From Siphonodentalium dalli (lineage: Eukaryota; Mollusca; Scaphopoda; Gadilida; Siphonodentaliidae), in contig CP136064.1 of assembly GCA_032622095.1 (NCBI GenBank), positions 192,541,948-192,605,947 of the forward strand: a DNA stretch of 64,000 bases. Reading direction: 5' to 3'. The translations under genes and the position numbers were made by a program. Below, piece after piece: positions 7,501 to 49,500 of this stretch; the first letter of the stretch is position 1, and the number at the start of each line of letters is the position of its first letter. Below the pieces are notes generated by a model. That model worked only from the letters and a program-made list of their open reading frames with translations. It searched no databases and was not told the DNA's origin.

Positions 7501-10500
7501 TTGCAAGTGCACAGGATTGCCTGCTACTAAATATCTCTGCCAAGTTTAAAAAAATATTGACTGAAACATGTAGGAACACAAGCTCGGACAATGATGCATC
7601 CAGTCAGATAGACAAGCTGATTCCTATATACCCCCCCCCCCCCCAATAGTAAACTTCGTTATGGGGAGGGGGTATAAAAAGAAAGTATTAATTAGCTGAA
7701 ACTGGTTCAAGAGACTGGACCACCTATATACATCGTAAGTTGGTTATAAAAGGTAAAATTAAGAGTTGTGAATGTCACGTAATTTGACTACAATGGGTAG
7801 CTTTTATCACCCTGGTTACGTGGTCCTGATAGTCTGCTGTGATGCTGGTGGATCCTGCTCAATTGCTATGATGCTCGCAGGGGAAAAATAATATTGTTGA
7901 GAAAATGAGTTTCTCTAAAGTTGTCATTTTCCCAGTGTTTGGCTAATCCGATAGATTTGAGAAAAGCCTTAGCTAGAAACAATAGAAAAAGATTTTTATT
8001 CTGCTTAAATGAAGTGTCACATTTATATTCTATGTATGAAGAATACATGTTTCTTCTGTGCTAATTCCGTGTACAATTTTATCCTTTTAGCACATTCCTT
8101 TCCAGCTTGAATTTGAGGGAGTTTAAAGTGAAGATTCCCATGCTGTTTATAATATATCTCACAACTTTCAAAACAAGTGTATTGAATAAATAAAAATTTG
8201 GACAAAATAATGACACATGAGATTGTTCCAATGCATATTAAAACATTTTTTTTTATATGAAGCCATCTTTATAATTTTACCTTCAAACTGCCGGCACATC
8301 TGTTGTCGTTCCTCCTGAAGTTTCTGATGCATTTGGTCCCATTCTTTTTTCTGCACTTCCATTGTTTGCCTGTTTGCATCTAACACTTTAACATTGGAAG
8401 ACAAATTCACATTCACCTCCGTTAACTGAAAAACCTTTTCTTCAAGAGTCATTTTCTCTGAATGAAGCATATTAACTTGCCCACAAACAGTTTGATGTTC
8501 AACTTTCAGCTTTGAAAGACTTTCATTCAACAAGTTCACAGAACTTTCCTTCGACTTCACGTCTGCCTCAACTCTGCTCCTCAGATGATGTTCCTGACTG
8601 AGTTGAACCTCTGCTTCATTCAACTTTTGCATAGTCGATTGCTGAAGACTCTTTGATTCTATCAGTTTACTTTCAACTGTCCTTGACTGGTTCCTCAAAC
8701 TTTCCAGTTGATTGTCTTTTTCCTGAACACATCGATCACTCAATTGCTGCATCGCACGAAACTCAGACCATTGTCTTTCTTTCTCCTTCGAAATCTCCAC
8801 AACGATGTTTTCTTTTTGCTGAATTTTCTGTTTAAGTTCCAAACATTTCTGCTCATGAGATTGAGACAGGGAGGACAACTCACATTTGAATTTTTCAGCC
8901 TGCTGTTGACAACTCATCTTAGCTTCTTCCAAACTCTCTCCTAATGACCGGATTTTATTGTCTTTCTGCGCGGATATATTTTCAAGAGCGATTTGAGCTT
9001 TAATTTTTTCATCAAGGAAAGTTCTTTGAGACTCCATTGCTGATATTTGTCCCTCATAAGCTTCTTGTATTTGTTTCAGCTGATTTTCTAAATAACCTTT
9101 CTCAGCAGACAGCTCTTCAACCTGCAAAGAAAATTTAATATCAGTTAAAGGCCCACCAGATCACATTATAAATAACATATTCCATATTAATATATATACC
9201 ATTTGAAAGAGGAAGCTCCAAAACATTCTATTATCAATTCATCCGGAAAAATAAACTAGGAACATGTTTTTGTTGAGGTACCGAGGTGTGTTCTGTGCAT
9301 AATTTTGATCCGGACTGTACTGTAAAGTATATGATTCTCAATGGAAGGGGAATAACTCTATCTCTTAGTTTAAATTCTGATGCATTATGGGTTGACAACG
9401 GGGGAAGTTTTGGAATGAATCTGAAAATATCTATCACTTGGTGAACACTCCAATAGGCCACAGCTGTTCCATTTTCTTATGGAATATATATATTTTTTGT
9501 TCCTCTTCCAAATGGTATATAATATGGAATATGTTGTGTGTAATGTTATCGGGACATTCAAAAAATAAGTTGGCCTTTAAAGGTACTCAATCTGATCAGA
9601 CGCTCCTAAATGACTATTTCTTTGGCTTCGGGGGTAAAAAATATTTTATTCAAGTTGAGGAACCCACCCATCAAAGCTCAAGAGTGATTAGATATCGATG
9701 TTTGAAGTTTCAATTGTTTGTGGACCAGAAGTACGTGGTCAAATGGACGAAGGTACGAATGAAGATGGATAACTCTAAAATCAAGTTGTTATTATTACCA
9801 CTTGATTTTAGAGTTATCCATCTTCATCTTCATAAAAAAAACTTTTATTTGAGGACATTTATTAGGGCTGAATCATAACCGGCTAACCATTTGAATTAAC
9901 CGAGGTTAACCATGGTCATGCAGGCCTATATTGACATATCATGACGTCTACATGGAGTCTATTATACACAACAAACGATTCAACTTAAGTTAAACAAAGG
10001 CCAACATGCTCAGTTATAAATGGAAATCGAATGCCAAAATTATCGCTAACTTGTGAAGGTTCGCGCAACATCAGGGAAAACAGCAAACCTTGGCAATTTC
10101 CGTATTGCAAATGCACAAATCTCCATGCATATAAGGGGACATAGGTAGGTAGTACTGCGATTGTGCAGACAGTAAGACTAAATATTAAAATAACATAAAG
10201 ATGATAAATATAACAAGTTTGAACAAGTACCATTAACAACATATTAGTAATTCAGAGTCAAGGGATTATATTATATTATTGTCAGATTTATCTGAGTGAT
10301 AAACGAAGTAGCTGCCGTATGTAGGCATACTACATGTAGCCACATTATAGAAATAGCCTGTAGGTCGAATACATACTATTGGAGCATGTGTAGACTAACA
10401 TTTCAAATGAGCCAAAATGTGGTCAGACTAGAAAAATATCAATATCTGTCCCTCTTATTTAATAGTTTGGCAGCACATGGTGCTCAATCAGCCTATTTCA

Positions 10501-13500: not shown

Positions 13501-16500
13501 TCGAACTTGATCTGTATTTTGGGGTGGTAAACTAATATACCAAATTTGGTTCAGTTCACTTGATTCAATCTAAAGTTATCATCCAGAAACTGCAAATTTA
13601 TCATGTAAAATCTAAGTCGAAAATGGGGCATAACTCAGTCAAAATCATGCAGACGAAACCCATTTTCGAACTTGATCTGTTTTTGGTGTGGTAAACTAAA
13701 TTACCAAATTTGGTTCAGTTCACTCTATTCAATCTAAAGTTATCATCCGGAAACCAAAAGCGGACGGATGACTGACGAACGGATGATGGACAGACAACCA
13801 ATTTACATAATACGACCGTTTTTTCAAAAGGGCGTATAAAAATGTATGTATGAGGTACTAAGTCAGTTTGAGGTGTTCCATTGCTTTGTAATAAATAAAT
13901 TATCATATGTTATCTAAATGACCATATATGACCCTCCATATAAAATCCAGTCGTAAATCGGGATTTTTTTTACCCTGTGCCAATGCATTCTCTTATATAT
14001 GCGAGTCGACCATAGCTCGCCTCGCATATATAAGAGAATGCATTGGCCTAACAATTTTAATAATTTTTTCTTGTATTCTTTAACAATTTTATAATTTCAC
14101 CCATACAGAGCCCCAGCCAAACATGAGCAGACGACACTCTTCTATATGCTTCTATATATGTGCGGGGCTCCCTGCAGGGTAATGGATGTTTTTTATTTTA
14201 TGTCCTAAATATTTTAAGATACATTTAATTTTAAAAAAATGATAAAAAATTGTTAGGCCAATGCATTCTCTTATATATGCGAGGCGACCTATGGTCGACT
14301 CACATATATAAGAGAATGCATTGGCACAGGGTAAAAAAAATCCCGACTTACGACTGGATTTGATATGGCGGGTCACATATTGTGAACAGAATGACACATT
14401 GAGATGTCGCAACTCAGATCAAGCTTGATAATCGGACCTCCATAAAGTTACCTGTGTTTACATTTACACATGTAATTATAATGATAATTTATACGATATA
14501 TATATGCTCTACTCATATTCTAAAGAATGAGACAAGAATATGCTGCGCAATGCTCTTTCACACACATTACAGATATGTACACACTACACACCTACACATT
14601 CTTGCCAACAGTGTATACTGGTTCTGTACACATGTGCTTATAAATATGGATCCATATAATCGTCCGAAATTAGATAAAATGGTTCAAAAATTAGTGTATA
14701 GTTTTAGCTAATAAACAGTCATCCCCAGTTGATTTTAATTTCTAGTTGGAAAATCACAAACGATGAGCAAATTGTCATGAGAATGATTCTGGGCAAAAAT
14801 TTGCTTGGGAAAAGGGGACCTAAAAAGGGAGCCCCTGCCCTTATATAGCCAGCAGAAAGCCTGCTTTACAGGCATACTTACCTTCTTCAGAGCTTCATCT
14901 TTTTCTTGACTGGACTGCACTAACATGCTAAGTTGATCAGTAACACGCTCAGTATTAGCAACTTCCTCGTCTTTCAGCATTTGGACATTCGCCAGTTGAA
15001 ACTGCAATTCAGTCCGCTCAATCTCAAATTCGACCACCTGTTTTTTTATCACTCCTAAAGTTAGGTTTACATCATTAAGATTAGCCTCCATTTTTTCTGT
15101 CCTCTCAACAATGGCATTGAACTCTGTGTTCTCATGTCTGTAATTTTGCTTGTAAGACAGCATTTCTGTTTCTAACCTCTGAATTGTTTCACAGTTGGAT
15201 GAATTCTGCAATATAATAAATTTCACATAAGATCTGTTAAGATCTAAGGAAAGTTGTTGACATTGAATGCTCTAAACAAGACACTTGCCAAACAATTTGT
15301 TATTCCTATCCTTCTAAGTCGAAAAAGGGCCGTTACTCATGTAAAAATAATTGGATGGAACCCATATTCAAACCTGGACTGTATCTTTAGCTAGGAAATA
15401 CACATAGCAACTTTGGTTCAGATCAAATAATTCAAACAGGAGTTATCGGTCGGAAACCAAAAATGTTAACAGATGGTCAAATTCTAAGTAAAAAAAGGGC
15501 AATAACTCATGTCAAAATAATTGGACAGAACCCATATTTGAACTTGGCCTGTATCTTTAGCTGAGAAATACACATACCAACTTTGGTTCAGATAAAAAAT
15601 TCAAACTAGATTTATCGATCGGAAACCAAAAATGTTAATGGATGGATTGAAGGACGGCTAGACTGATTACATATAAATACAACCTTTTTTTCAATAGGGC
15701 GTATAAAAATAAAGTTATCAAGAATTAAAAGCGGTTTAAAACTTTCCTTACAGAAGTGAGACAGACACAACAATTTATCACCTATTATTCTAGATTTCAT
15801 GACTTGAATAAGTTTTCAAGGGTATATATCGGATTCATAAAAGCCTTTCACATTTCGGTTTAATTAGTTGATATTATTAGGAAATGTTCCAGAGTGAAAC
15901 CACCTGGTATCAACTGGTATCAAAATATGGTGCCGAACATTTTCAGAATGAGGTCCCCAGAGGGTGAATTTAGTGAGTCTACCCTGCACAGCGGGCTAGC
16001 ATCACTCACTAAATTCACCCTCTGGGGAATCTTCTATGGGCAGCCATTCGGTCGGAAATTACATGAAATAAAAGTTAATGGTGGCTTGTAAAAACAATAG
16101 TCTCCATTTTTAAACCAATGGTCGTTCTTTGATTCTATAAGAGACAATTCCGTTTCAATAGATATAGATTCAAACCAAATAGTCTCCATTTTCAAACCAA
16201 TGGTCGTTCTTGGATTCTATAAGAGACAATTCCGTTTCAATAGATATAGATTCAAACCAAATAGTCTCCATTTTCAAACCAATGGTCGTTCTTGGATTCT
16301 ATAAGAGACAATTCCGTTTCAATAGATATAGATTCAAACCAAATAGTCTCTATTTTCAAACCAATAATCGTTCTTGGATTCAATAAGAGACAGTTCCGTT
16401 TTAATAGATAAAGATTCATAATCAATGTTGACCGATGCAAAATTAATGTTCTATTTTAATTTAATAGTGTTCACTGTTCAACTAATATCTAATAACACAC

Positions 16501-19500
16501 AATTAGTAAGATTCGCGCATATTCAATAAACGTACATTCCGTTTCAATGGCCATATTTTCTTAATCAATAAAGATATTTCAAACCAATATTCTCCATTTT
16601 CAAACTAATAGTCGTTCTTGGATTCAATAAGAGACAATTCCGTTTTAATAGATATATTTTCTTAATCAATAGAATCTATTTCAAAACCAATAGCTGTTCC
16701 TGGATTCAATAAGAGACAAATCTACTATTTCCGGTTAAACCAATGAATAATAATTGAAGATTATTAACATCTGTTTACAAACCAATGATCATTTCTCGAA
16801 TTAATAACTTCCGTTTACAACCAATGATCAATACTTAAACCAATGAACGCTAGGGTCGCCACCAATCTCAAATTAACGCTAGGAGCGCCACCAATCTTGT
16901 TGGAGTCACCAAACTGCAAATTCCGTGACTTCAACATGGGATACCCCCCTGCCAAAAATAAAAATGCATATTCTCGAACATTTTCGCGTCAGAAAGTGAC
17001 CCTGAACATGAAAACTGCGATGATATACGGACTGTGGACTATATCCTGTACCTGTAGCAGATACCGAAGATCCAATTGAGAGCTTGTTTTTAATATTGTC
17101 ATTATTATTGACCCAGAAGATCTGAATTAAGCAACCGAATTTGAGGACTGTATGATGTTGATCACTTGATGTATCACTGTCAGTATCTGTAATTAACTCA
17201 TTCACTGTCAGTATTACTGTGATTATCACTGTTCCCAACTGACCTACATGTACCAGCTCAGAAACCAGATCATACAAAGCGTCACTCAATCACCATATCT
17301 TGGAGTCATGCTCTCAAACGATATGAAATGGTTGCCACACATAGACAAGATCACGAAGAAGGCTAACAGCACGCTCGGATTCATCAGAAGAAACCTTAGG
17401 AAGGCACCATTCAAGAGTAAATGCGTAGCGTATGAGACACTCGTAAGATCGTCGCTGGAATACGCAGCCGTCATGTGGGATCCTCACCAGCAGCAGAACA
17501 TCGACGCCCTGGAGAGAATACAGAGAGGAGCTGTATGGCTCATGACCGGCAATTACCAATCGAAGGACATGGCCAAACTGATGAATGACTGCGAGATAAG
17601 ACCACTCGAAGAAAGAAGGAAAAGACCAGAGGCTGGAGCTCTTTCACAAGATGGATAAGGGGCAGGTGTCGGCTGTAAACACTCAGTGCTTTTTATTAAA
17701 CCAAAAAAGGTGGGCAGAAAAATCCGAGCCAAGAAATTTGCAGATTTCAGTGCCACAAATATAGTCTCAAAACAGGAATGTAATAATTCACTGTCCTACC
17801 GGTAAGAGCCACTGGTGACAAACTCTGCTGAATACTCAAATTCATTCTTCCCACGGACAATTGTTCAGTGGAACACTCTAAACGAGATGGACGCATGCGA
17901 AATTCAAAATGAACAGCAGCAGACAACTCAACAGTCCCGCAAAGAACATAATTCTCTCTCTCCCGGCGTTCTACACATCCGCGAGGATCATACGCCGTAC
18001 ACCATCCAGATCCAGATGCAGGGGTTGTCTGTCAAAATCCGGTGGAGAACTTAGGATGTGTTCGACAAGTACTAACAACAGCAGTATGAATATGATTATG
18101 TCAACAATAACAACAACAACATCTCTAACACCGTAAGATAATCGTTCGATCTACTGTGTAGTGCGTACTAGCACTGTACATTGCGACGACTTCTTCTGAA
18201 AACAACCATTGAGTGGAACCGCTTCAAACAGTCAGATGTTGATTCAGGCGATCGGTAATATTGAATGTCTGAAGGATTTATTAAATATGGATTCTATTTT
18301 CTAGACGTTTCATACGAGCGTCGTGGAATAGGATTCTGAACATTGCTGGAGTATTGATCAAGTAAACCTGACAGTGTGAAGAGCACTTCAGAACTCAATC
18401 ATAAGCCAACTAGAACAGAGGTCATGTCAACTTACAGGTTGCATTATACATGCATATATTGTGACCACATAAATGATATATACAACTGCAGTGACTTCTT
18501 CATTATTTCAGTATTTGATACCATAACCATGGTCGTTCCATAGTAATCCATACCATAATTTTTGGTTTTACATACCGGTAGGGTACCGGATTGTTTGGTT
18601 ACTTTTTTTTATTTCGTACTTTGTAGAAAATCATTTATTTGTTTCCATATGGTGTGACATACATGTAGTAACATGGTACGAAATGACCAATTGATTTCCT
18701 ACATGGTACGAAACGACCAAACAATAAGGTATGAAACTACCAAAAATATGGTACGAAACTACCAAAAATATGGTACGAAATGACTTAAGATGATACAAAA
18801 CGTCCTGTACCCATTTATATCTCCTCGGCAAGGGGAACAACCAGACAGTGACCCTGTAGACTAGCAGCGCCAACATCGTTGGTTTGATATTAGGCCCTAT
18901 ATCACCCTGAGGTAACCTCATATCACAATCAGCCTGACGACGAAGGCTGATATGAGGCTACTGTCTATAATATCAAACCAACCAAGTAATACCCTACATG
19001 TATCTATTAATTACGGTAGTTCGCCTCTTAGTAACAGTGTAATATTGACAACTTTTTCTAATGAGTGACATCACAAAAAATTGATATCTATGCCTATTCT
19101 AATAGTGAAATACAAATGGAGTTTGATAACAAGCCATATCGTGCAAAAATGTCATATCTAATTAATAATTTTCGAACAAATTTTGGACCGATATACATTT
19201 ACCCTGTAGCCATCTGTAGGAAACTTCCTTCCAAGGGGGTGTTGTCGGAACATACATGTATCAAGGTGGACCCCCTCCCCAATGGGAGACTCGTATCCAT
19301 GCCCATTGGAAATAAATGATAATGTGCAATGGATGAATAGGTTGCTGGCATTTCATACCATGGAAGTTTGACATGGAGATGTTTCGCACCAGGGTTCTGG
19401 ACATTTCATACCAGTTCCTGTATCATTTCGACAATTCGTACCTTTGAGTATACCGGTATTATTTTTTTTTTAAATGACATTAAAGGTACTCAATCCGATT

Positions 19501-22500
19501 CGATGGTTCCCATATCATCATATTTCAACAACAACAACAACAACACCATTTTTTGAAATGCCACTTCGTTTACCAGAATCGATTAATGCCCCAAAAATAA
19601 TGCTAACCAGTCAAATATAGTATACAATTGCCCAAAACCTGTTATTTATCAATATTTTGTTCAATGAAATTTTGCGGGTTTGTCAAATATCTGACATAAC
19701 AAAAGCCACTTTCTTTTTGAGTTATCCATCTTCATCCGTCCTCTTTCGACTTTTTATTGGGCCACTTAAAATTATCTCAGCTTTGATGGGTGGGTTCCTC
19801 AACTCAAATCACATATGTTTTACCCCGAAGCCAAGGAAATAGTAATATTTAAGCGTTAATTCGGATTATGCATCTTTAAATTTGTCGCGACAATTTCAAT
19901 TGGTTCATTTTGATTCGAAAAAAAAAAGAAGAAATATGTTAACATGTAAATGTCGGGTTGTCATCATCACGAACGTTAAATCATGATCATGTTCACTCTC
20001 ATTAAGTTAACACGATTAATATAATTTTTCACATGTACGAATGACCATTCATCTTTTTTGGGAATCAATGAAACATACCAATATATGGTGTGAAATGACC
20101 AAAAACATGGTACGAAACAATTAAATGTGTCATTCAAATCAAGGGTACAAACTGGCCATAGTAGGAAAAGTCGTTTGAGCCATCCAACAGACCTGGGTGA
20201 ATCGCTTGGGCGATCGGTTTTCCACTGTAAGGATGCATCTTGGAAGAGGGGAGTCAATCTAATTAACTGTTATCTATAACCAATACTTAAAAACAATAAC
20301 AATTTATTCTGATTTCTTTTGAAACACACAGAATAATTATTTACTGAGAATATTCAATATAAACATGTATAATTCTCAAACAAAGGGAATTTCAATGTTC
20401 AAGAAATTTAGAGTCCCCTCTTACTATGGGAGGCCCTTTTCACATTTATTATTTATTTGCGCTCAAGCACAAATATTAAGCTTAAACATAAATCATTTGG
20501 GCTTAAGCGAATGTCATTTGCGCTTAAGCACAAATATGTGTCTATCAATTTGTTTGCGCTTAAGTGAAAATCAGTTGCGCATAAGTGTAAATGCTTTGCG
20601 CTTTAGCGCAAATACCTAACACTCCTTTACTTCCCTCTGATTGTGAATGATGGAGTCCATCTCATAGTATATTATTATGGGCCCATAGTAGTAGCCCATA
20701 CAGATTCGAAAGTTGAAAAGTCAAAAGCATCTCTGTCTCTGGTGTCCCAAAAATTGGTGCCTCATTCCCAAAGCTCTAGTATATTTTATTAAAGGGACAT
20801 CTCCTGCACAAATATATACCATTTCCATGGTCATAGAAGGGGAATTAGGGGTTACTGGTGGCTTGCTTCCCTCGTGGTGCACATGTACTTATTGAATAGA
20901 AATAGGGGAAAAGCATATTTTCATATTATCAGCATCCCTGTCCCTAAGAATTTGTGCCTCCATCCCAGAGATCTATTACATTTTATAAAAGAGACATATC
21001 CTGTACAGATATATAGCATTTCCATGGTCATAAAAGGTATTGGTATCTAGGGATCACCGGGGATTGCTTCCCTTGTATGATGGGCCTACAGGTATATAGA
21101 CTTGAGTGCAAGCCTGCAAATAGCGTGTCAGTCATTTGTAGAATGAGGTCCACAGAGGATGAATTTAGTGACAGTACACCACATAGTGGGCTAGCATCAC
21201 TAAATTTACCCTCTGGGGGCCTCATTCTGCTTAGGGCCCTCAACTGCTATGGCAGTCCTAGGATAAGATTGAAGTTCCCCAGTTGAAGTTGGTGATGTTC
21301 ACCCATTTGGAGCCTCGATTATGGATTTTATCTTCTGCAAATTAGGGGATATAGAAACTTCCCAGATGGGAAAACGTAACTATAAACAATGTTAATTTGA
21401 TACCATAGTTACTTCCCAGAAAATGAGGCCTAAGCAGAATGAGGTCCCCAGAGGGTGAATTTAGTTATGCTAGCCCGCTATGCAGGGAAGCATCACTAAA
21501 TTCACCCTCTGTGGACCTCATTCTGCAAATGACAGACATGCTATTTGCAGGCTTAAGCGCAAATGATTTGTGATTAAACATAAAATATTTGCACTTAAGC
21601 GCAAAAATTCATAAGTAATTGTATGTCATAATTTGCAAAGTTCTGTCCAATTCTTGTTAAAATATGACTAGATTCATAACGGTGATATTTGGTTAAATTT
21701 CATACCGAGTTATGTATAATCGAATTATTGAGGGATCGCGGGAGGGACTTGGATCATACGAATGACATATATTCATTGCTCCAATTATCTCTTAACATGA
21801 GCAATACAAAATGAAGTCACATTTCCGAACCAGTTCCATACAGCAGAACCTGATCTAGAAGATATTAGCGAAAAAACGTCAAATTCCCTCTTTCAGCTGT
21901 CATTTTGACGACCATCTTGGGCGGGGAGTTCCAATTTTACCCTTAAAATGTGGCATTATATCTCTCAGTCATACGAACTGAATATGCCTAATTTAAATCG
22001 TATATTTCATGGTGAGATTAATTGCAACATTTATTAAATAATATAATAACGAAACGCTCTATAAATTTGGAAAACCCCTTAAAAAGAGGGGTTAAAGTGA
22101 AATTTCAGCGTGGCTCCATATCTAATATAAAAGAAGATGTACATATGTGCAAAGTTTCATATATATATTATATCATATATATTATATATTATATATAGTG
22201 TCCTATATATTATAGTGAATATTTATCGTCGTTTGATTTGCACCGAGTGAACTCATATTCCAAATCGTCACATCGACATGACATTGGGAACTCCCATGTT
22301 TATTTCTATATTTCTGACGTCACGGATTTTGCGAACAAAATTGGTGGCCCGCGCCCCTAGCGTTAATTTACGAATTGCTTATAGGTTTGTGTTTTAATCA
22401 TTAATTTCAAATGAGCTCATTGGTTTGACCTGAAATAGTTGATTCCGCTATTAGATATTAGTTTGATAACGATAATTATTGATCGTGGGAAATAGTATAT

Positions 22501-25500
22501 TGGTTTAAAATATGTCTATTGATTATTAGTTTTACAATAAGGTCTATTAATTTTACAGTAAGTTATTAGTTTTACAATAAGTTAATGACGGTTTTAGATA
22601 TAGGTTTTACAATAAGTTATTAGTTTTACAATAAGGTCTATTAATTTTACAATAGGTTATTAGTTTTACAATAAGTTAATTACGGTTTTATTTATTAGTT
22701 TTACAATGAGTTATTAGTTTTACAATAAGGTCTATTAGTTTGATAACGATAATCACTGATCGTGAGAAATCGTCTATTGGTTTGAAATATGGCTATTGAA
22801 ACGGAATGTACGTTTACTGAATATGAGCAAAGCTGTATTAATTGTTTGTTATTAGATATTAGTTGAACAATGAATACTATTAAATTAAAATAGAACATTA
22901 ATTTTGCATCGGTCAACGTTGATTGTGAATCTATATCTGTTAACACGTAATTATCTCTTATTGAATCAAAGAACGACCATTGGTTTGAAAATGGAGACTA
23001 TTGTTTTGAAATAGATTGTAGTTGTTTTCACAAACCACCATTAACTTTTATTTCATGTAATTTCCGAACGAATGGCTGCCCATAATCTTCTGCTTAGGCC
23101 TCATCTTTTCTGGAATGTATCTTTATTATAATTTTTTTTAGTTTCTTTAGCAACTGCTTTAGATTCTTTTTCCTTTTTACTTTAGTTTCACTATATCCCC
23201 AAATTGGCAGATGACACAATGCATAATCAAGGTGCCCTTGGAATGTGTGTACGTCACCATCTCCACAACCTGGGAACTTATTATAAATATGAGTCTAGAT
23301 CCCAAATAGCAAATTAGGCCATGCAGAATGAGGTCGCCAGATGGTGAATTTAGTGATGCAGCTGATGTTAGCCTGCTGTGCGGGTCAGCGTCACTAAATT
23401 AACCCTCTGGGGACTCATTCTGCAAACGTCAGGCACCATATTTTGAGGCCTGGCTTCTGCAAATGGGAACTTTACTGAAACGAAGACAAGTTAACTACCT
23501 GTTGAACGGTGTCGTAGTGAGAAGATTGTAGTTGCCCCAGTTCTGATGAAAGATCTGAAATCTTGTTGTAGTTTTTATCATTTTGTTCATCGAACTCATT
23601 CTTTGAAGATGCCAGTTGTGCTTCGAGTTTCTGCCTGCAGTGTTCATACTCTGATCTATCTTTCTCATTTCTCTCCTTCCTATGAGCTAACTCCTGTTGT
23701 AAATGCTCCATCTCTGTTCTCTTTTCATCCAGTCCCTAAATTAAGAACATTTTACTGATGCTGACTGATGGTTACGGTGAGTAACATATATTACTCTGTT
23801 GAATATGATCCATCCAATTTGACGCTATAAAATTAATTCATTTGCCAAAAATAGTAGATCAAACAGGAACCCATTCATGGGAAGTTTACAATGGTTACAA
23901 AAACATGAAAAGAATAGAACAAATTTGTTCTTATTTTCATTGTCAATAATCCTCCAGTGACGAGATACCACATCTTTAGGGCCCTGTGAAGCTTCGAAGA
24001 TTTGATTCAGTGTCAACATCGACAATCAGATTCGATCTAATAAAAAAATTGGCTCTCTGATTCGTATATTTTTTTAATTGGACCATTCTTTCCGTTGTAT
24101 GGGGACAGACAACTAAAATTTTAATTATGGAGCTCAATTGACATGGCAATTGTCGCATTGTGCTGTGTTTTCCCACCTGGATGTCTCGTCGCCTTGTGCA
24201 TGCTGTAATTTAGAATTTACACTATAATTAAGTGATTACACCCATCGCAGTCAGTCACCCTTTCGCAGTCAGTCACCCTTTCGCAGATGTCAGTACATTT
24301 ATTTCATTTCAGTTTTGACAAACTATTACGACGGAAGTGAGTTTGCTTGACGTGAAAGTTATCTCACTTGACCGTTGACCTGAAAATGTCTGCACATTCA
24401 TAACCGGTTCGTACAAAGAGATTTCAATTGATAACGGAAAAAATTATATACCTTGTTTTATGTCAAATGTTCTTGATTATTATACATAGATGTATGGCCA
24501 ATTACTTATAGTATATTAGCCAGTGAATGCACAAAAACAATTGTGCTTTAAAAACCCAACAGTATAATTATCAATTGCTTTATCGATAAAACCACGTGCC
24601 TCTTGTTTCTATTCTCATAGGAAGCCTTCACGTTGGTAATAAACATTCTGATTCATTGTAGAAGGGAGCTATTTATCTCGCGATATTACGTGTTTTGTTT
24701 ACATATTGGAGTGAACAGAAACAGGGTTTTTTTTTTACAGTACAGTTTCGACTGATATTTCTTATTATAAAGCGTTTAATGGCGAAGTTATGAAATAATT
24801 AATCGCACAGCATAAAATGGTCGTGCACATAGAACTCTCAGGAAACAAAAAAAAAATATCCGAAATTCACCTGGAAATGCATTAAATTAATATTGAAGAC
24901 TCCGTAAAAACAAATTGAAAAATCGCATATTCCTGATGGCAAAAGCCCATGTGCAGTTGACTTTGTTAAATTGAGCTAAAAACATGTCTGTACCACAACA
25001 AAAACATGTTCAGTTTATTACAACGGATAAGTTGATAATACAAAGTTTTGCAGCTTCCTCTTTCAAATGGTATATAATATGGCATATATTTTATATAATG
25101 TGATCTGGGAGTTCGAAAATTAAGTGGGCCTTTAATCATGCGTCTTCCAGTCTGATCAAGCTCAAAAAGATCCCTATGAAGACGACTATACTGAATGTTG
25201 AGTTTCACGAGTTATAATGTGTATTGTTTCATCAGTAGCTTGAATGTGTATTTCGTCAAAATATTATATCTAAGCGATCAAAGTCACTACTTTCAAAGAA
25301 GGAGGTTGGTCAGCAAGCTGAAAGGGACCCTACATACAAACTACTCTCCTAATGAGGGGGTGTTAACATCTTTACAGTAATGTCACAGATGTGATTCTAG
25401 CAGAACATTGCTTTTCATATGATCACATTCATGTGTCAGAAATATTCAGACATAAAATAGCACCGCAAAGATAAACAAAGATATTCGATAGATATTCCCT

Positions 25501-28500
25501 ACTGATTGTCGAATTGAATAGCAATCAAATACTCAAGTCGAATCAAATATCATTTCAAATACCAAATATAAGCCAGACCTTACTTTTGCATAAATTTTCT
25601 GGCAATACATCAATGAGTAAATTTGACACCTTGTGATATAAATGTTTTTAGTTGATATGCGCTAATACGATGGCTTTCAGACAAGTTGATATATATTATT
25701 TGATCAGCGGAATTCAATAAATTCTATTCACCTAGAAGTGCCTTGAGTGCCATTAAAGAGCCTACTTCTTATTTAGTGGAATCAAAATTGAAAATACAAA
25801 TTCCAATGGAAATCCACCAAAACTTTGCCCAGCTGCTTGTCCATCAATTCTAATTATCACCAAGTTCAAACTCTCTCTATTAATTCAATGCATAGGTTGA
25901 TTACTTTCTGTAACCCCCTAAAATACATGAGACATCAATATTTTTTATTAAAAATTGCACATGAGGATCAGGATAAACTTGTATTAATGAAGCATGGGTG
26001 ATTCCATATTACTAGTAATGGAATTTAAAGGACAACTTTGTTTTAAATCCAAGTGAATGATTAAATGCAAAAATTCAGCAGTGTTAATATAATTTTAAGA
26101 AAACTACATGAATTTGTCATATTATATGTAGGCAATCTGAGAAATTATAACTTTACTGATAATATTGTGCAATACAAAGTATTTAAATGAAATCTCACTT
26201 GAAACTTCTCTTTTAAAGGTAATACTGGATCAATGAATTTCAACTTCACATTTTTACACTCATATTTTAACTGAATATGTACATCAATGAAATGTATTGA
26301 ATTGCAAATTCACCTTGTTTCTTTACAAATGGAGCCAACAATTTTACTACTGGGGAAAATAAAAAGACTCACCATTCTGAACTCATTGGCCTCGTTTCTC
26401 CAGTAGCTTTCAACTTCTAAAACTCTCTTATTGAACAGCTCTTCTTTCCTTGCCATACTCTCCTTTAGTTCACATCCCTCACTGTCCCTTTCTTTCACAA
26501 TATTTTCCAACTGAAGTAACTTTTGTTTTGTAACATTGAAATCAGCTGTTAGCACTTCTTTTTCACTAATATATTTTTCGACTGAAGAGTTAGCATTCTG
26601 AAAACTTTCACTCACTTCTTGGATAGTTTTCTCCGATACCGATAAATCATGCTGCAAACAGTGAACCTGTTGAACCTTAGACTCGAATACAACATTCAAC
26701 GATGCACAATCATTGTCCAGCTTCTCACATTTTTCCGTCAATGTTCTGATTTCACTGCTTCCATTATTAACCTGAAGCCTGAGATCATCGATTACCTGTT
26801 CAAGTTGATTCACTTGTGTAACACTTTCATCACGACTGGTACACAGTTCATCAACCTTGACGACAAGACAATTCTTTTCATCACAAAGAGAATCCATCTG
26901 ACTATTAGCAAGAGATAAGTTGTTCCTAAGGGAAGAAATCTCTTCATCTTTCGAGTTGATATCAGACAGCAGGGAGGATTGTAACACAGTCGTTCTATCA
27001 CAAGCTTCTGCATTTGACTTCACCAAGTCACTGATCTCTTCTCTCAGTTTGCTCATAGTTAGCTGATGTTCTTGAGTTTCCTCCTTCAATGAAACAACAT
27101 TCTGTCCCAGTTCCGCTGCAGTTGTCATTTTCATTTGAACAGAATTTTCAAGTTCACCAATTCTCACTGAAAGATGCTGATTTTCCCCGTGAACAGACTC
27201 CAATTCAACATTAGTAGCAGACAAGTCCGTTTTAAGAGCAGAAATCTCCTCATTTTTAGAACTAATTTCTGTCTGCAGTGTCAAGTGAACAGTGTTAACT
27301 TTATAAGTATCCTCAGAATGTGACTTAACCAAGTCAGCCATCTGACTTTTGCATTTATTTATTTCACAGTTCTGATTAAGAATTTGTTGTTCCAGTTGAG
27401 TAATACCAGAAACTTTTTGTTGTAGAGAATTATTCAGCTCTTCAATATTGCCCAACAGCACCTTTTTGTCATTTTCCAAAGACTGCAAGTCCAAGCTTGT
27501 TGTAGATAGATTATCATTCAAAGATGAAATCAGCTGATCTTTGGAATTTATATCTGATTCAAATGAAGATTGTGCAGCAATAGCTTTAACAGAAACCTCT
27601 TTGTTTAACTGAGTTAAATCTGTAATTTCCTCTTCCTTCCTACACAAGTGACCTTTATATCCATCAGTCTCTTTCATCAGTTGTTTAATTTGTGAATCCT
27701 GTTGGCATGCTTGTTCCACATATTCTTTCCTTGTGATATCAAGTTCTTCAACTGCTTTCATTAAACTTTCTCTTTCAGTCCGCAGTGAATTCACATTATC
27801 TTTAACCTCAGATAACTGATTGTTCAGAGTCGTAATAATTCCGTCTTTGGAGGCTATTTCGCTCCGTAATGACAAATGCAAAACACTGGCCTCATCTGCA
27901 CCCTCTTCGCGTAATTTGGTTAGTTCAGTAATGTCATTTTCTCTTTTGTTTAAATGAGATTGAAGGTCCTGCAATTCTTTTCTCAGTTGCTCGCGTTGCA
28001 GTTCAATTTGCGATATATGCATCAAATTCTCATTCCTAATGTTGTCAAGTTCTTTAACATTGGAGAATAATCCTTCCTTTTCGTCACTCAGTGAATCTAT
28101 GTTAACATTAGATTCAGATAGCTGGTTGTTAAGGCAAGCTATAACTCCATCTTTAGAGGTGATTTCCATTTGAAGAGAAGACTGTAGAGCAGAAGCATCA
28201 TCCACAGCCTCCTTATGCAAGTTAGCAAGATCAACAATTTTATTCTCTTTCTGGCACAAGTGAATATTTTGGTCCTCATTATTTTTTTTGAATTCTCCTA
28301 TTTGAAGCTCCAGTTGTGAGATATGTGTATGATTTTCATTTATGGAGTAATCCAGTTCTCCAACTTTCCTCAGAAGACTTTCCTTGTCACTGCTGAGGTT
28401 ATCTATATTAACATTAGCCTCAGATAACTGGTTGTTGAGTGAAGATATAATATCAACCTTCAAATTAATTTCTGATGTCAGAGACAACTTCAAATTAGCA

Positions 28501-31500
28501 GCTTCATCACACGTTTCTTTGTGTTGTTTGGTTAAGTCAGCGATAACATTCTCTTTCTCACTATAACAAATTTGGTGATTCTCGATATCTTTTTTCAATT
28601 CCCCTATTTGCAGCTCCAGTTCTGATATATGTGACAAGTTTTCATTCCTTGTATTGTCAAGTTCTCCAACTTTCTTCAGCAGCTCTTCCTTTTCATTGCT
28701 CAATGATTCTACCAAAACATTGGTTTCAGATAACTGTTTGTTGAGAGATGAGATTATCTCACCATTGGAACTAATTTCTGACTTCAGAGATGAATGCAAA
28801 GTGGAAGCTTCATCCGACATCTCTTTGTGTAGCTTGGTAAACTCAGAAAAGTCGTTCTCTTTCTTGAATAATTGATGTTGAAGGTCGTCAATCTCTTTTT
28901 TCAACTCTGCATTCTGAAGTTCTATTTGTGAGATGTGATTCAAATTCATACTCCTGGTGTTATCAAGTTCTCCAACATTCGTAAGTAAGCTTTCCTTTTC
29001 ACTGCTGAGTGAATTCACAGTAACATTAACTTCTGACAGCTGGTTGTTAAGAGAAGAGATCTTGTCATCCTTGAAACTGATTTCTGACTTCAAAGTCGTC
29101 TGGAAAGCTGTGGCTTCATCCGACATCTCTTTGTGTTGTTCAGTTAAATCAGAAAAGTTGTTCTCTTTCTTGACTAATTGAAGTTGAAGGTCGTCAATCT
29201 CTTTTTTCAACTCTGCATTCTGAAGTTCTATTTGTGAAATGTGATTGAAATTCATAATCCTGGTGTTATCAAGTTCTCCAACATTCGTAAGTAAGCTTTC
29301 CTTATCACTGCTGAGTGAATTCACAGTAACATTAACTTCTGACAGCTGGTTGTTAAGAGAAGAGATATTATCATCCTTGGAACTGATTTCGGACTTCAAA
29401 GTCGTCTGGATAGATGTGGCTTCATCCGACATATCTTTGTGTAGTTTAGTTAAATCAGACAAGTCGTTCTCTTTCTTGAATAATTGATGTTGAAGGTTGT
29501 CAATCTCATTTTTCAACTCTGCATTCTGAAGTTCTATTTGTGAGATGTGATTCAAATTCATAATCCTGGTGTTATCAAGTTCTCCAACATTCATAAGTAA
29601 GCTTTCCTTTTCACTGCTGAGTGAATTCACAGTGACATTAGTTTCTGATAGCTGGTTGTTAAGAGAAGAGATCATGTCATCCTTGGAACCGATTTCTGAC
29701 TTCAAAGACATCTGGAAAGCTACGGCTTCATCGGACATCTCTTTGTGTTGTTTAGTTAAATCAGAAAAGTTGTTCTCTTTCTTGACTAATTGAAGTTGAA
29801 GGTCGTCAATCTCTTTTTTCAACTGTGCATTCTGGAGTTCTAGTTGCGAGATGTGATTCAAATTCATACTCCTGGTGTTATCAAGTTCTCTAATATTCGT
29901 AAGTAAGCTTTCCTTTTCACTGCTGAGTGAATTCACAGTGACATTAGTTTCTGATAGCTGGTTGTTAAGAGAAGCGATCATGTCATTCTTGGAACTGATC
30001 TCGGACTTCAAAGTTATCTGGAAAGCTGTGGCTTCATCAAGTTCATGAGACATATCTTTGTGTAGTTTTGTTAACTCAGTATCTTTCTTGCTCATATGAG
30101 TTTCATAGTCCTCAACTTCTTTCTTCAATGAGTCAATCTGCTTCTCTAGTTGAGAGATATGTGTGAAGTTTTCATTCTTCAAATTATCGAGCTCTCCAAC
30201 TTTGATCAACAAGTCTTTCTTCTCACTTGTCATAGTATTCATATTAATATTCACTGTAGTTAGGTCGTTCCTGAGAGCGAGTATGAGGTCATCCTTCACA
30301 CCAATTTCATTCTGCATGGATGATTGCATAGATGCGGTTCTATCTGACGTCTCTACATGTGATGATTTCAGCTCAACGATGTTACCCTTGTAAGATTCCA
30401 CTTCTTTTTGATAATCCGAAATTTGAGTTTTCAGATTATCAATACAATCATCTCTGCCAGCCAACATCTGAAACAGATATAAGAATCAATATTAAAATTT
30501 ATATCTATTAGAAAATATAAACTGGAATTGAACTTTGAACATATATGAACATATGAAGGACTGGAGTGGGAACTCACAGGCTAGGGTTTTGAATACTGAT
30601 TTGGGCAATACAATTCAGAAATCAATTTATTGTGTCCCAATATGGTGTAATTCAGAACATATATCATAAAATCTAATTCATTTCATGAATGGGTCATTTA
30701 TACTTTTACACCTTGTTGTTAACATTATCATATTATAATAAATGTAAAGTGTAAAAAAAACAGTGACTCACTCACACTTCGATTCACTTGATACAATTTA
30801 TACACCATAGTCCAGGGAAATTTCCAGGGCTGTTACAGGTATGGGCGCCCAAACTGAGAAGCCCAAATGACCCCAACTTCCTAGAGGACAGTATTGAGTC
30901 AACCTGAATTTTCAAGGCAATTCAACAATATGCGATGTAAATAAAAAATATGCAGTTGCAATACAGCCTTCATTTGCATGTTAAATTTTTAAATCAGAAA
31001 TATTATGTCATATTTATAATATATGCGTCTGTATCTGTGTTGGTTATGTGGAGAAGCCATATTTTAAAGTTATATTGGGATACCGGTACATATCCTCTGC
31101 TGGAAACAGGTGTCCCCAAATTATCTCTGGATTCTTCCCTGCCATAGTCTATTGCTCATCTGGAGGGGTTTTCAGGAAATATAAGCAGACGACATATCAT
31201 AACAAATCAGAAGGCATCCAATTTATTGGGGGAAATGTTCAGAAAATAAGTTCAAGAAATTGCCTAGAGATGATCGTTTGTTGAACTTATTATCTAAACA
31301 TTTCCTATTTAGTAGAAAAACGGTTATTCACTTCTTTAAAAAGACATCAGACTGACATTGTTCAAACCACTGTGTTAACCTAACTTTAACATATATGTTA
31401 TGACTCACCTGTACATGTTCTTGCAGGAAAGATTTGAGATGTTGTTTCTCGGTCTGTAGTTCAGAGTACTGTTGATTGCAGACAGACACTACACACGTGG

Positions 31501-43500: not shown

Positions 43501-46500
43501 TATTCTAAAAGGAACATAACAAGATATCAACTTCACAACAAACATTATAGCAGTTTAATGAGGATTGCACAAAATTTTCAACAAGAGCATCGCTAGGGCG
43601 TGGCAATATATTCAAGTGGTAATTCAAACAAAGTGCCATAATTCTGGTGAAAATAGGCGTGCGGAACCCGCATTCGAACTTGACCTTTATTTTGAGCTAC
43701 ATACCAATTTTCATTCCATTCAGTTGAGACTTTCTAAAGTTATTATCCAGAAATATAAAGCAAACGGATGGACGGCGAACAGAATAACATAATTTATGTG
43801 CCGTTTTTTTTAAACGGGAATATAAAAACTATGTTCCTGATTTCCCTATTCACAGTTCAATTTTCCAGTATTGATTTGAAACTGAAACTGACACATTTTA
43901 CCACCCGTCTCTATTTTAACACTTTCTTTACTAAATACTCATTGACGAGTAGTTCCCTCAGGAACTGTTCAGATAATAAGTTCAATAAAACAACCATATT
44001 ATCCCATCAAAGAATATGTATCCTTCTGCATTTGTATTAGCTTTTCAATTGTCTGTCATCTGCTTTTATTACCTGAGCACCCCTCCAAATGAATAATAGA
44101 CCATTCCAATGTATACTTTTATAACCGATGGTAGAATCCATTTAGTAAATGAAAGTGTCAACGACACTGTAGCTCAACTTGGAAAGGGAATAATTTAATA
44201 TATTACAGTCAATGGAGCGATTAGGAATGTGGAAAGTTGAATGTCTAATACTCGTTTATAGACATGAAGAGAAAAGTAAAATCCAAGTTGGCTGCTGGCG
44301 GCCATGTTTTCGGCCGAATGACCCCAAAATGAGTCGTTCCCATCTACATGTCATCGTTAACATCAATGACAAATTTTATGACGATCAGACTCAAGGTACG
44401 ACCTGTGGCCCGTGCTAATGGATTAAATTTTGAAATCCAAGATGGCCACTGGCGGCCATGTTTTTTGTCCGAATGACCCCAAAATTACTTGTTCCCATTT
44501 ACATTCCAATTTCAACAGCCATGAAAATTTTTATGATGATCAGACTAAAGGTACGACCTGTAGACAGTGCTAAAGGATTTAGTCATACAAAGAGTAAAAT
44601 CCAAGTTGGCTGCTGGCGGCCATGTTTTTTGGCCAAATGACCCAAAATGACTCGTTCCCATCTACATGTCATTATTAACATTCATGAAAATTTTTATGAT
44701 GATCCGACTAAAGGTACGACCTGTAGCCCGTGCTAAAGAATTTAGTCATACAAAGAGTAAAATCCAAGACGGTGCTGGCGGCCATGTTTTTTGGCCGAAT
44801 GACCCCAAAATGACTCGTTCCCATCTACATGTCAATATTAACATCCATGACAAATTTCATGTAGATCAGACAAACAGTACGACCTGTGGCCCGTGCTAAT
44901 GGATTAAATTTTGAAATCCAAGATGGCCGCTGGTGGCCATGTTTTTTGTCCGAATGACCCCAAAATGACTCGTTCCCATCTACATTACAATTTCAACAGC
45001 CATGACAAATTTTATGATGATCAGACTAAATGTACGACCTGTAGCCCGTGCTAAAGGATTTAGTCATACAAAGAGTAAAATCCAAGATGGCTGCTGGCGG
45101 CCATGTTTTTTGGCCGAATGACCCAAAATGACTCGTTCCCATCTACATGTGATGTTTTCTTGACAAATTTTATGATGATCAGACTAAAAGTAGGACATGT
45201 AGCCCGTGCTAAAGGATTTAGTCATGCAAAGAGTAAAATCCAAGACGGCTGCTGGCGGCCATGTTTTTTGGCCGAATGACCCCAAAATGACTCGTTCCCA
45301 TCTACATGTCATTGTTAACATCCATGACAAATTTTATGATGATCAGACAAAAGGTACGACCTGTAGCCCGTGCTAAAGGATTTAGTCATACAAAGAGTAA
45401 AATCCAAGATGGCTGCTGGTGGCCATGTTTTTGAGCCAAATGACCCCAAAATGACTCGTTACCATCTACATGTCAATATTAACATCCATGACAAATTTCA
45501 TGATGATCAGACAAACAGTACGACCTGTGGCCCGTGCTAATGGATTCAATTTTGAAATCCAAGATGGCCGCTGGCGGCCATGTTTTTTGTCCGAATGACC
45601 CCAAAATGACTCGTTCCCATCTACATTCCAATATCAACAGCCATGACAAATTTTATGATGATCAGACTAAAGGTACGACCTGTAGCCCGTGCTAAAGGAT
45701 TTAGTCATACAAAGAGTAAAATCCAAGATGGCAGCTGGCGGCCATGTTTTTTGGCCAAATGACCCCAAAATGACTCGTTCCCATCTACATGTGATTATTA
45801 ACATTCTTGACAAATTTTATGATGATCAGACTAAAAGTAGGACCTGTAGCCCGTGCTAAAGGATTTAGTCATGCAAAGATTAAAATCCAAGACGGCTGCT
45901 GGCGGCCATGTTTTTTGGCCGAATGACCCCAAAATGACTCGTTCCAATCTACATGTCATTGTTAACATCTATGACAAATTTTATGATGATCAGATTAAAG
46001 GTACGACCTGTAGCCCGTGCTAAAGGATTTAGTCATACAAAGAGTAAAATCCAAGATGGCTGCTGGCGGCCATGTTTTTCGGCCGAATGACCCCAAAATT
46101 AATCGTTCCCATCTACATGTCAATATTAACATCCATGACAAATTTCATGATGATCAGATGAACAGTGCGACCTGTGGCCCGTGCTAATGGATTGAATTTT
46201 GAAAACAAAGATGGCCACTGGCGGCCATGTTTTTTGTCCCAATGACCCCAAAATGACTCGTTCCCATCTACATTCCAATTTCAACAGCCATGACAAATTT
46301 TATGATGATCTGACTAAAGGTACGACCTGTAGCCCGTGCTAAAGGATTTAGTAATGCAAAGAGTAAAATCGAAGATGGCTGCTGGCGGCCATGTTTTTTT
46401 GCCGAATGACCCCAAAATTACTCGTTCCCATCTACATGTCAATATTAACATCCATGACAAATGTCATGACGATCAGACGAACAGTACGGCCTGTAGTCCG

Positions 46501-49500
46501 TGCTAATGGATTGAATTTTTAAATCTAAGATGGCCGCTGGCGGCCATGTTTTTTTTCCGAATGACCCAGCTGAATGACCCCAAAATGAATCATTCCGGTA
46601 CAAATGTTGATGTCAACAGCTATGACAAGTTTCATAATGATCCGATCAAAGGTCCGACCTGTAGCCTCTATTGTTGACGCCTTACGCACACACGGACGAC
46701 GGACGACAAAGCCATGGCAATGGCTCAAACTTTACAAAGTTGAGCTAAAAATGACTCGTTCCCATCTACATGTCATTGTTAACATCCATGACTAATTTTA
46801 TGATGATCGGACTAAAGGTATGACCTGTAGCCCGTGCTAAAGGATTTAGTCATACAAAGAGTAAATTCAAAGATGCCTGCTGGCAGCCATGTTTTTTGGC
46901 CGAATGACCCCAAAATGACTCGTTCCCATCTACATGTCATTATTAACATTCTTGCAGGCCTGGAAATCTCAAGGCGGGCTGCCCGCCTACAGCCCGCCTA
47001 GAATTTTCCAAGGCGGGCTTTTTATAGCCCGCCTCATCTACGATAGGACATTTATTATTTAGTTATTTTATTGTGTTTAATGAGTAAAATACTGCATCAA
47101 AATCGTAATTATATTGTACAGTGTGGGGATTGTGCGCATGCGTGACTTGACGGTAATGTCAAATGGGAATTATAGCGGAATCAGTAAATTCCAGAACGAA
47201 CTGTTTCGTAAATCTGATCTTTTGATCGATTCTCACACATTTTATGACCAAAATAAATAATTTCTCTTCATAAGATTGAGCTTACAATATATTTCACTGG
47301 ATAAAATGACACATGTTTGTGGATAGTGAGAACCAAATGTCACTGTCCCAATTAAGTTCAACCTTTCGTTCCGTTTCCGGTTCCTATCAGTGAAAATTGT
47401 ATTTAGCTTGCAACCGTCTTTTATCGCTTCGATTGACAATATTTTAATATAATTAGCTAAATGTATCCACGTATTCTAGTTTACACTGTTATTCAATTAT
47501 TAAAGTTCAGAAACTATTTTCTATGTCCCCAATTGCAAACACCCAGTAAATCTATAGATAGCGACTTGACCGCTGCAAGCAGCAGTCTGCGATCGACAAT
47601 GGAATATGGATTACTTTGAGAGAAAAAGCAGTCAATATTCAAGTGCAAATATACTGGATTTAATATTGTTCTTGATTGTGTATTTTACGTAAAATTACAC
47701 TTTCATGGAGAATGCTTTTAATGTGGACAAACTCACCCAATTCCGTTGCATGGGTTGGACACCGACTGACAAATTGTTGAGTACAAATACTCTTACATTT
47801 TGTTTCTTGTACATATAGATTATCACAACATATAAAACCATTTTATTACCATAATTACTGTGGGGGATTTTGACATTCACAACTCTGTGGACACTTTGTT
47901 TCCACATGAAGAAAATTAATTTAAATGGAGTTATACAACATCAAAAATAGACAAACTAACGGCAGTAGTAACTCAGATAAAATAAATCATAACTTTAAAA
48001 GTTGAGGAGGGCTATAGCCCTCCTAGGCATATCTAAGAGGGCTATTAATAGCCCTCCTGGATTTTTTAGATCGCCAGCCCTGTTCTTGACAAATTTTATG
48101 ATGATCAGACTAAAAGTACGACCTGTAGCCCGTGCTAAAGAATTTAGTCATACAAAGAGTAAAATCCAAGATGGCTGCTGGCGGCCATGTTTTTGGGCCA
48201 AATGAGCCCAAAATGACTCGTTCCCATCTACATGTCAATATTAACATCCATGACAAATTTCATGACGATCAGACAAACAGTACGACCTGTAGCCCGTGCT
48301 AATGGACTGAATTTTTAAATGCAAGATGGCCACTGGCGGCCATGTTTTTTGTCCGAATGACCCCAAAATGACTCGTTCCCATCTGCATTCCAATTTCAAC
48401 AGCCAGTCCTTCGATTTTGAGGTGCGCAATTGCGCTTGCGCGCCTTGGCGCGCGCGGATCTAAAAACCAGCGAGTTATTAAATGCGCATGCCAAAAATTT
48501 CAAATGCGCGCCTCAGAATTTGCAACCAGTGAACGAGATTTTAACAAACAACACACCAATGGTTAAACGCCGACAAGACTATTCACCATGTATCTTTCTC
48601 AGCAGTGATGATGTTGATTACGAACCTGGTAACAAAGATCAAAGCGGCGTCTTTCACACTCAATGATTGGTGTGACACCTCGTCACAACTGCTGCATGTG
48701 CGAGTTCCCGCAAAAAGCGTGTCAATTCTTTGGCGGCCTCGTTTGATGTTTCGACATGCGGGATTCACCGATTCATTTGAATACTAGATTAGGGTTTAAC
48801 TGTATCATCATTCATGTTGGATAGTGACTCATCAAGATCTCATGACATACTAACCCCAGCTCCTGCCTTCGGCAATCGGCGATGACCGTATCGATATTAG
48901 GCCCATAAAAATAGCTATTCAATTCGGAATGGATGCTATTCAATTACAATAATTGACTAGCTATATACTAATCAAAATTTTGAAAGTATAATTTGCTCCC
49001 TGGCAATCTGATTCCGGTGAATCTGATTGCGGTAACAAATCGGATTCCACTTCCGAGTTTGAAGCTTTAATCGAGTGTGATGAGCATGCGCTCTCAGACG
49101 CGGAAGTCGACTAATTACAATGATCAGATTCACCGCGATTGCCGGATTGTTGATGTTATTATCATGTGGACTATATATTGTACAATATAAACATATGTTT
49201 TTATTTCTGTTTCTGTTGCCACACTTGGAATTAAATGTGTGTATCATTATACTTGTGTTTGTCTTTATTCAGTAATCATTTCATCGATGTTAATTTGAAT
49301 TGTGCTCCCTCATAAAAGGCGCGCGCAAATCCCAAAAGCTCCGAGCGATATATCGCGCACCTACGTTTTCCAAATTCGAAGGACTGAACAGCCATGACAA
49401 ATTTTATGATGATCGGACCAAAGGTACGACCTGTAGCCCGTGCTAAAGGATTTAGTCATGCAAAGAGTAAAATCCAAGACGGCTGCTGGCGGCCATGTTT

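Follow-up and report, generated by a model that had tools for sequence, protein, structure and literature searches.

A 7,050-bp transposable element of the scaphopod Siphonodentalium dalli, lying at positions 16035–23084 (no strand assigned) of the 64,000-nucleotide stretch of DNA analyzed here (the window), is likely to be a non-autonomous, recently amplified cut-and-paste transposon that is moved in trans by a transposase of the IS3EU/GingerRoot type. IS3EU seems to be a little-studied transposon class, for which the long, repeat-filled, mirror-image arms of this element seem an unusual match. The initial annotation had suggested either an undescribed foldback family or a large non-autonomous partner of an unknown transposase. 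The element is indeed foldback-like, large and apparently non-autonomous, while the “unknown” enzyme gives way to one that is probably of the IS3EU/GingerRoot type, as judged from a 6-bp target-site duplication and TATGG..CCATA termini.

The boundaries were set by 17 other copies from the same genome, in all of which a T precedes ATGGG and an A follows CCCAT; because these two bases are present in every one of the 17, they are the element’s own. The element runs from TATGGGCAGCC to GGCTGCCCATA and is real as first annotated, but that description (16036–23083, 7,048 bp) left each end one base short. With the larger limits, the duplication is therefore the 6-bp ATCTTC, found at 16029–16034 on the left and at 23085–23090 on the right (both on the forward strand). 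In the window copy AATCTTCT stands at 16028–16035 and again at 23084–23091, the order being AATCTTCT then ATGGGCAGCC at the left end and GGCTGCCCAT then AATCTTCT at the right, which had been read as a perfect 8-bp target duplication. Such an 8-bp match occurs at the flanks of only 3 of 18 copies, namely L029, L037 and the window copy, in which the first base beyond the duplication is by chance an A on the left side and a T on the right. The presence of 8-bp flanks in other copies had been proposed as the test of that claim, and 15 of the 17 lack them. The 6-bp direct repeats outside the ends vary in sequence from copy to copy; they are exact in 15 of the 17 other copies and carry one mismatch in the remaining two (L032 and L038). 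The inverted termini ATGGGCAGCC are present as originally described.

Duplication length and termini both point to IS3EU. According to a study of IS481EU, which places GingerRoot in the same lineage, TA..TA termini are found in all complete IS3EU families and 6-bp duplications in most (PMC10045372), and PMC12730594 gives the termini of fungal IS3EU families as TAYGG..CCRTA. The ends of the element fit the general TA..TA rule as well as this longer fungal signature, and its duplications, ATCTTC in the window included, have the length usual for IS3EU. Drawn entirely from termini and duplication length, membership in IS3EU is probable.

The element belongs to an abundant family, and the other genomic copies that the initial annotation had predicted do exist. 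The first 201 bp of the element were used as a query against the window’s own genome (2.23 Gb, 9 contigs); 40 of 1,047 candidates were scored, and all 40, the window copy included, match the full 201 bp at approximately 100% identity. From the other 39, 20 were retrieved as stretches of 10 kb each, which contain both ends in 17 cases; these 20 are best matches to one arm rather than a random sample. A 31-bp end pattern allowing up to two mismatches occurs 375 times in forward and 383 times in reverse orientation, 758 ends genome-wide, against 0 and 0 for a reversed-pattern control. This number is far beyond chance and corresponds to roughly 380 copies at two ends per copy, provided that solo ends are few, so that the family probably comprises several hundred copies. 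The same ends, as a 25-base pattern, have no match in viral contigs.

Most of the retrieved copies are built alike. The window copy and 17 of the 20 share a core at 95.7–97.1% identity; L022 and L023 have a different core, and L033 is represented by its left end only. Copies with both ends in hand span 3.6–9.8 kb, the longer ones containing extra inserted DNA, several pieces of which are flanked by duplications of their own. When 20 further ends were sampled 900–2100 bp inside, 17 matched the window element there wholly or partly, the match in one (L058) extending over only about 270 bp. The inside sequence of the other three (L045, L050 and L062) has no match to any copy compared; L045 may be a solo end, since the sequence adjoining it looks, on inspection by eye, like the beginning of a Rab-like host gene. 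All 17 core-sharing copies carry at least 101 unaligned bp at element position ~3077 (exactly 139 bp in 9 of them), and because this extra stretch is universal among them a small deletion at that point of the window copy is probable. Over an 850-bp stretch of the core, 15 copies differ by a mean of 1.7% in pairwise comparison (0.6–2.7%); the variants comprise 93 singletons and 7 that are shared. Judged from this star-like pattern, there is a recent burst from one source among the 15 copies compared.

The inverted arms occupy 16035–16954 on the left (forward strand) and 22279–23084 on the right (reverse strand). They extend over about the 0.8–0.9 kb initially ascribed to them, but the match is patchy rather than continuous: a gapped local alignment covers 652 columns at 82.5% identity over 919 and 805 bp, the outer 54 bp are 96% identical, and a block of 283 columns is 86% identical. 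Both arms are rich in tandem repeats, as had been noticed from the start. The left arm holds an 82-bp array (16096–16418, forward strand) of 3.9 copies in the window element and of 3–10 regularly spaced units in other copies, the spacing being irregular in L025, L030 and L035. In the 7-kb type, the right arm has one unit related to the 82-bp unit and a separate array of 19/40/94-bp units (22523–22741 in the window, reverse strand). In L022 (3.56 kb) and L023 (3.66 kb), an arm of the left type is found at either end. The two share 98.6% identity over 3.5 kb, and L022 is palindromic over nearly its whole length (1.3 kb at 96.6%).

A short motif, A[AC]C[CT]AAT, recurs along the arms in one direction. 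It points inward 12 times and outward never in the first 860 bp of the left arm, and inward 13 times and outward never in the outer 720 bp of the right arm, against inward expectations of 0.54 and 0.75 from 300 first-order Markov simulations; the motif was picked after inspection of the arms, and these counts are descriptive rather than a test. The 5.5-kb core has one occurrence each way. All 21 left arms and all 18 right arms examined carry the motif in the inward direction only. These motifs are perhaps transposase-binding sites.

The core itself would be passenger DNA, made up of a reverse transcriptase fragment and a nested foldback repeat. The first, at 17197–17658 (forward strand), is open for 153 aa in the window and for 191–208 aa in 12 other copies. 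Its frame gave nothing above cut-off against Pfam, but 49 homologues are 36–57% identical to it (the one with the best E-value at 48%), and 13 of the 49 carry the reverse transcriptase domain PF00078. It is taken, from these similarities, as the captured C-terminal fragment of a LINE reverse transcriptase, presumably of the non-LTR type. The second is a repeat of about 450 bp at 21109–21554 (no strand assigned), of the same family as the repeat at the insertion site. That host repeat is interrupted by the element, its left part lying at 15923–16028 and its right part at 23091–23446 (both forward strand). When the flanks are joined with one duplication dropped (15801–16034 and 23091–23520), they align through the junction with the core foldback repeat, with two single-base gaps inside the duplication; the two repeats are diverged relatives and not identical. 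On this alignment the insertion site was itself a repeat, of a family that is also represented in the element’s core, and therefore the halves of the foldback resume outside the element, just as the initial annotation had placed it.

No transposase of the element’s own was recognized in the copies read, whether by Pfam or by eye, in keeping with the first impression that none is visible. Pfam searches covered 18 frames, 13 from the window element (out of 44 that are 50 aa or longer) and 5 from other copies, and none of these 18 reached the curated cut-off; in other copies, frames of at least 110 aa were judged by eye and some of them scanned. The transposase-bearing copy that had been hoped for between such arms was not found among those read. 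Several candidates for an autonomous copy were set aside: L024 is interrupted by a nested insertion of 2.7 kb, which carries a FLYWCH domain and is flanked by a separate duplication of 8 bp; L028 and L033 have frames that look LINE-like by eye, and L033 is moreover a copy of the left flank of L032 with 902 bp of its left end; L030, L035 and L037 contain other nested insertions.

Could the enzyme be encoded elsewhere in the genome? The domain rva_4 (PF24764), which we take to be a domain of integrase-like IS3EU transposases, has at least 126 profile matches in this genome among the best 150 of 241 candidates scored, and none in 14 control genomes. Among the matches listed, 18 have a frame of 294 residues, 17 without a stop in the match. 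If the domain link holds, integrase-like rva_4 proteins are numerous in this genome. The positions of these matches were compared with 100 of the 758 ends, all mismatch-free, ends with one or two mismatches being left out; the comparison took in 63 rva_4 places on contigs 1–4 and on contig 5 up to the last listed end, omitting adjacent matches of one place, contigs 6–9 and the rest of contig 5. None of the 63 lies within 10 kb of these listed exact ends, the nearest being 18.8 and 31.7 kb away. Because no rva_4 place was found near the listed exact ends, the partner enzyme may be elsewhere, have diverged ends, or be another protein.

This separation, together with the lack of a transposase-bearing copy among the copies and ends read, would also be expected if the element belonged to an undescribed transposase lineage that had come to 6-bp duplications and TA..TA ends by convergence with IS3EU. 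Such a convergence is unlikely, as both published IS3EU hallmarks fit, and so does the longer TAYGG..CCRTA signature of the fungal families. It is similarly improbable that the element is a non-autonomous derivative of a Polinton/Maverick, inserted by an integrase, with 6-bp duplications and long inverted repeats. Polintons end in AG..CT, as opposed to the TATGG..CCATA of the element; no Pfam match to Polinton genes appeared in the 18 element frames scanned, and copies with both ends measure 3.6–9.8 kb, extra inserted DNA being present in the longer of them. The long, repeat-rich inverted arms do speak for a Polinton origin, as does the duplication length, since 6 bp is also given for Polintons in PMC10045372. 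An origin among foldbacks of the Mutator (FB/Tetris-like), P (Galileo-like) or sea-urchin TU type is very unlikely, for although the long tandem-repeat arms and the foldback form are shared, the 6-bp duplication, exact in 15 of 17 copies, does not fit the 8–10 bp of Tetris and 7 bp of Galileo reported in their descriptions, nor the 8 bp of TU elements.

An IS3EU/GingerRoot-type element would be mobilized as follows. A putative integrase-like DDE transposase of this type would act on it in trans, recognizing TATGGGCAGCC and making cuts in the target that are staggered by 6 bp. It would also bind, as putative sites, the A[AC]C[CT]AAT motifs that recur and face inward along the arms, and the length of the arms would change through gain or loss of tandem units. 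A broader model, which we put forward tentatively and with less confidence than the assignment itself, is that the family represents a foldback lineage within IS3EU/GingerRoot, the foldback form having arisen outside Mutator and P. The arms might then be directional arrays of about a dozen short putative binding sites for the integrase-like transposase and might expand or contract as tandem units are added or lost, with the nearly palindromic 3.6-kb form (L022 and L023) as an end point. Through its clear signature of 6-bp duplications and TA..TA ends, such a young and abundant family would connect foldback architecture with an integrase-like superfamily, and arms that are one-directional arrays of putative binding sites offer a testable rule. 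In the literature searched, no treatment of IS3EU together with foldback elements was found, the word “foldback” standing beside IS3EU in a single paper, and there only in a cited title.

How does the element compare with known foldback systems? The initial annotation had likened its arms to those of sea-urchin TU and Drosophila FB elements, a kinship that falls because the duplication is 6 bp and not 8. TU elements resemble the element in their varied middles and in their long inverted arms, which contain tandem repeats, but differ from it in an 8-bp duplication. PMC4079207 attributes most foldbacks to Mutator and describes Tetris as having duplications of 8–10 bp and a transposase partner that was not found. 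Tetris and FB, for which Mutator is suggested, share with the element long arms with tandem repeats and a variable middle, and Tetris likewise lacks a known partner, but their duplications differ from its 6 bp. Galileo of Drosophila, placed in the P superfamily with a P-type transposase and a 7-bp duplication in PMC3573991, which also mentions secondary transposase-binding sites in its arms, is similarly foldback-like with long, internally repetitive inverted arms and variable internal tandem repeats; its duplication length and enzyme set it apart. With foldbacks thus assigned mostly to Mutator, Galileo to P, and some, such as Tetris, left with no enzyme in hand, the importance of the present family would lie in its signature. 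IS3EU/GingerRoot elements share its 6-bp duplications and TA..TA termini; the differences are the element’s long foldback arms with tandem arrays, the arms of fungal families being described only as “TIRs longer than 30 bps”, and the lack of a recognized transposase in the copies read.

Copy L032 of the element and L033, a left end only, lie 15 kb apart in the genome; their left flanks are identical over the 12 bases seen, and the 902 bp of the element's left end match at 99.4%. The pair is a local duplication running through the end of the element. Among the exact element ends listed for the genome containing the window (G000), eight fall in one 220-kb stretch of contig C1 (C1:190132750-190352006). 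This cluster includes five forward ends at spacings of 10.5-14.4 kb, and the stretch is perhaps tandem-duplicated.

The cores of three other copies carry nested insertions. The one in L024 is 2.7 kb long, with one end GGGTCGGGGTCG and an 8-bp duplication, CAATGAAA, and holds a frame with a FLYWCH domain. L037 contains a 532-bp insertion with ends AGGGGGGGGGG and CCCCCCCCT and a 9-bp duplication, GGCTTAAGC, and the 5,252-bp insertion in L030, set between 6-bp repeats (TAACAA), is without TA termini. Among the matches scored for rva_4 (Pfam PF24764) in the genome, 18 have a 294-residue frame and near-identical scores (for example C8:58584278-58584802 and C3:78070981-78071505), a young-looking family of integrase-like genes.

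Within the window, a 29-bp unit is repeated in 13.1 copies with 100% matches (56407-56785), and a unit of about 164 bp with AAAATCCAAGATGGC forms arrays in adjacent blocks (44275-46949 and 49387-51914). Long minus-strand coiled-coil open frames flank the element on both sides, at 8168-9160, 14735-15271 and 26310-30485, the last encoding 1,391 aa and holding a 306-bp tandem repeat. In Pfam, ATG16 scored above the cut-off and other coiled-coil models under it. The element is perhaps inside an intron of a single gene.
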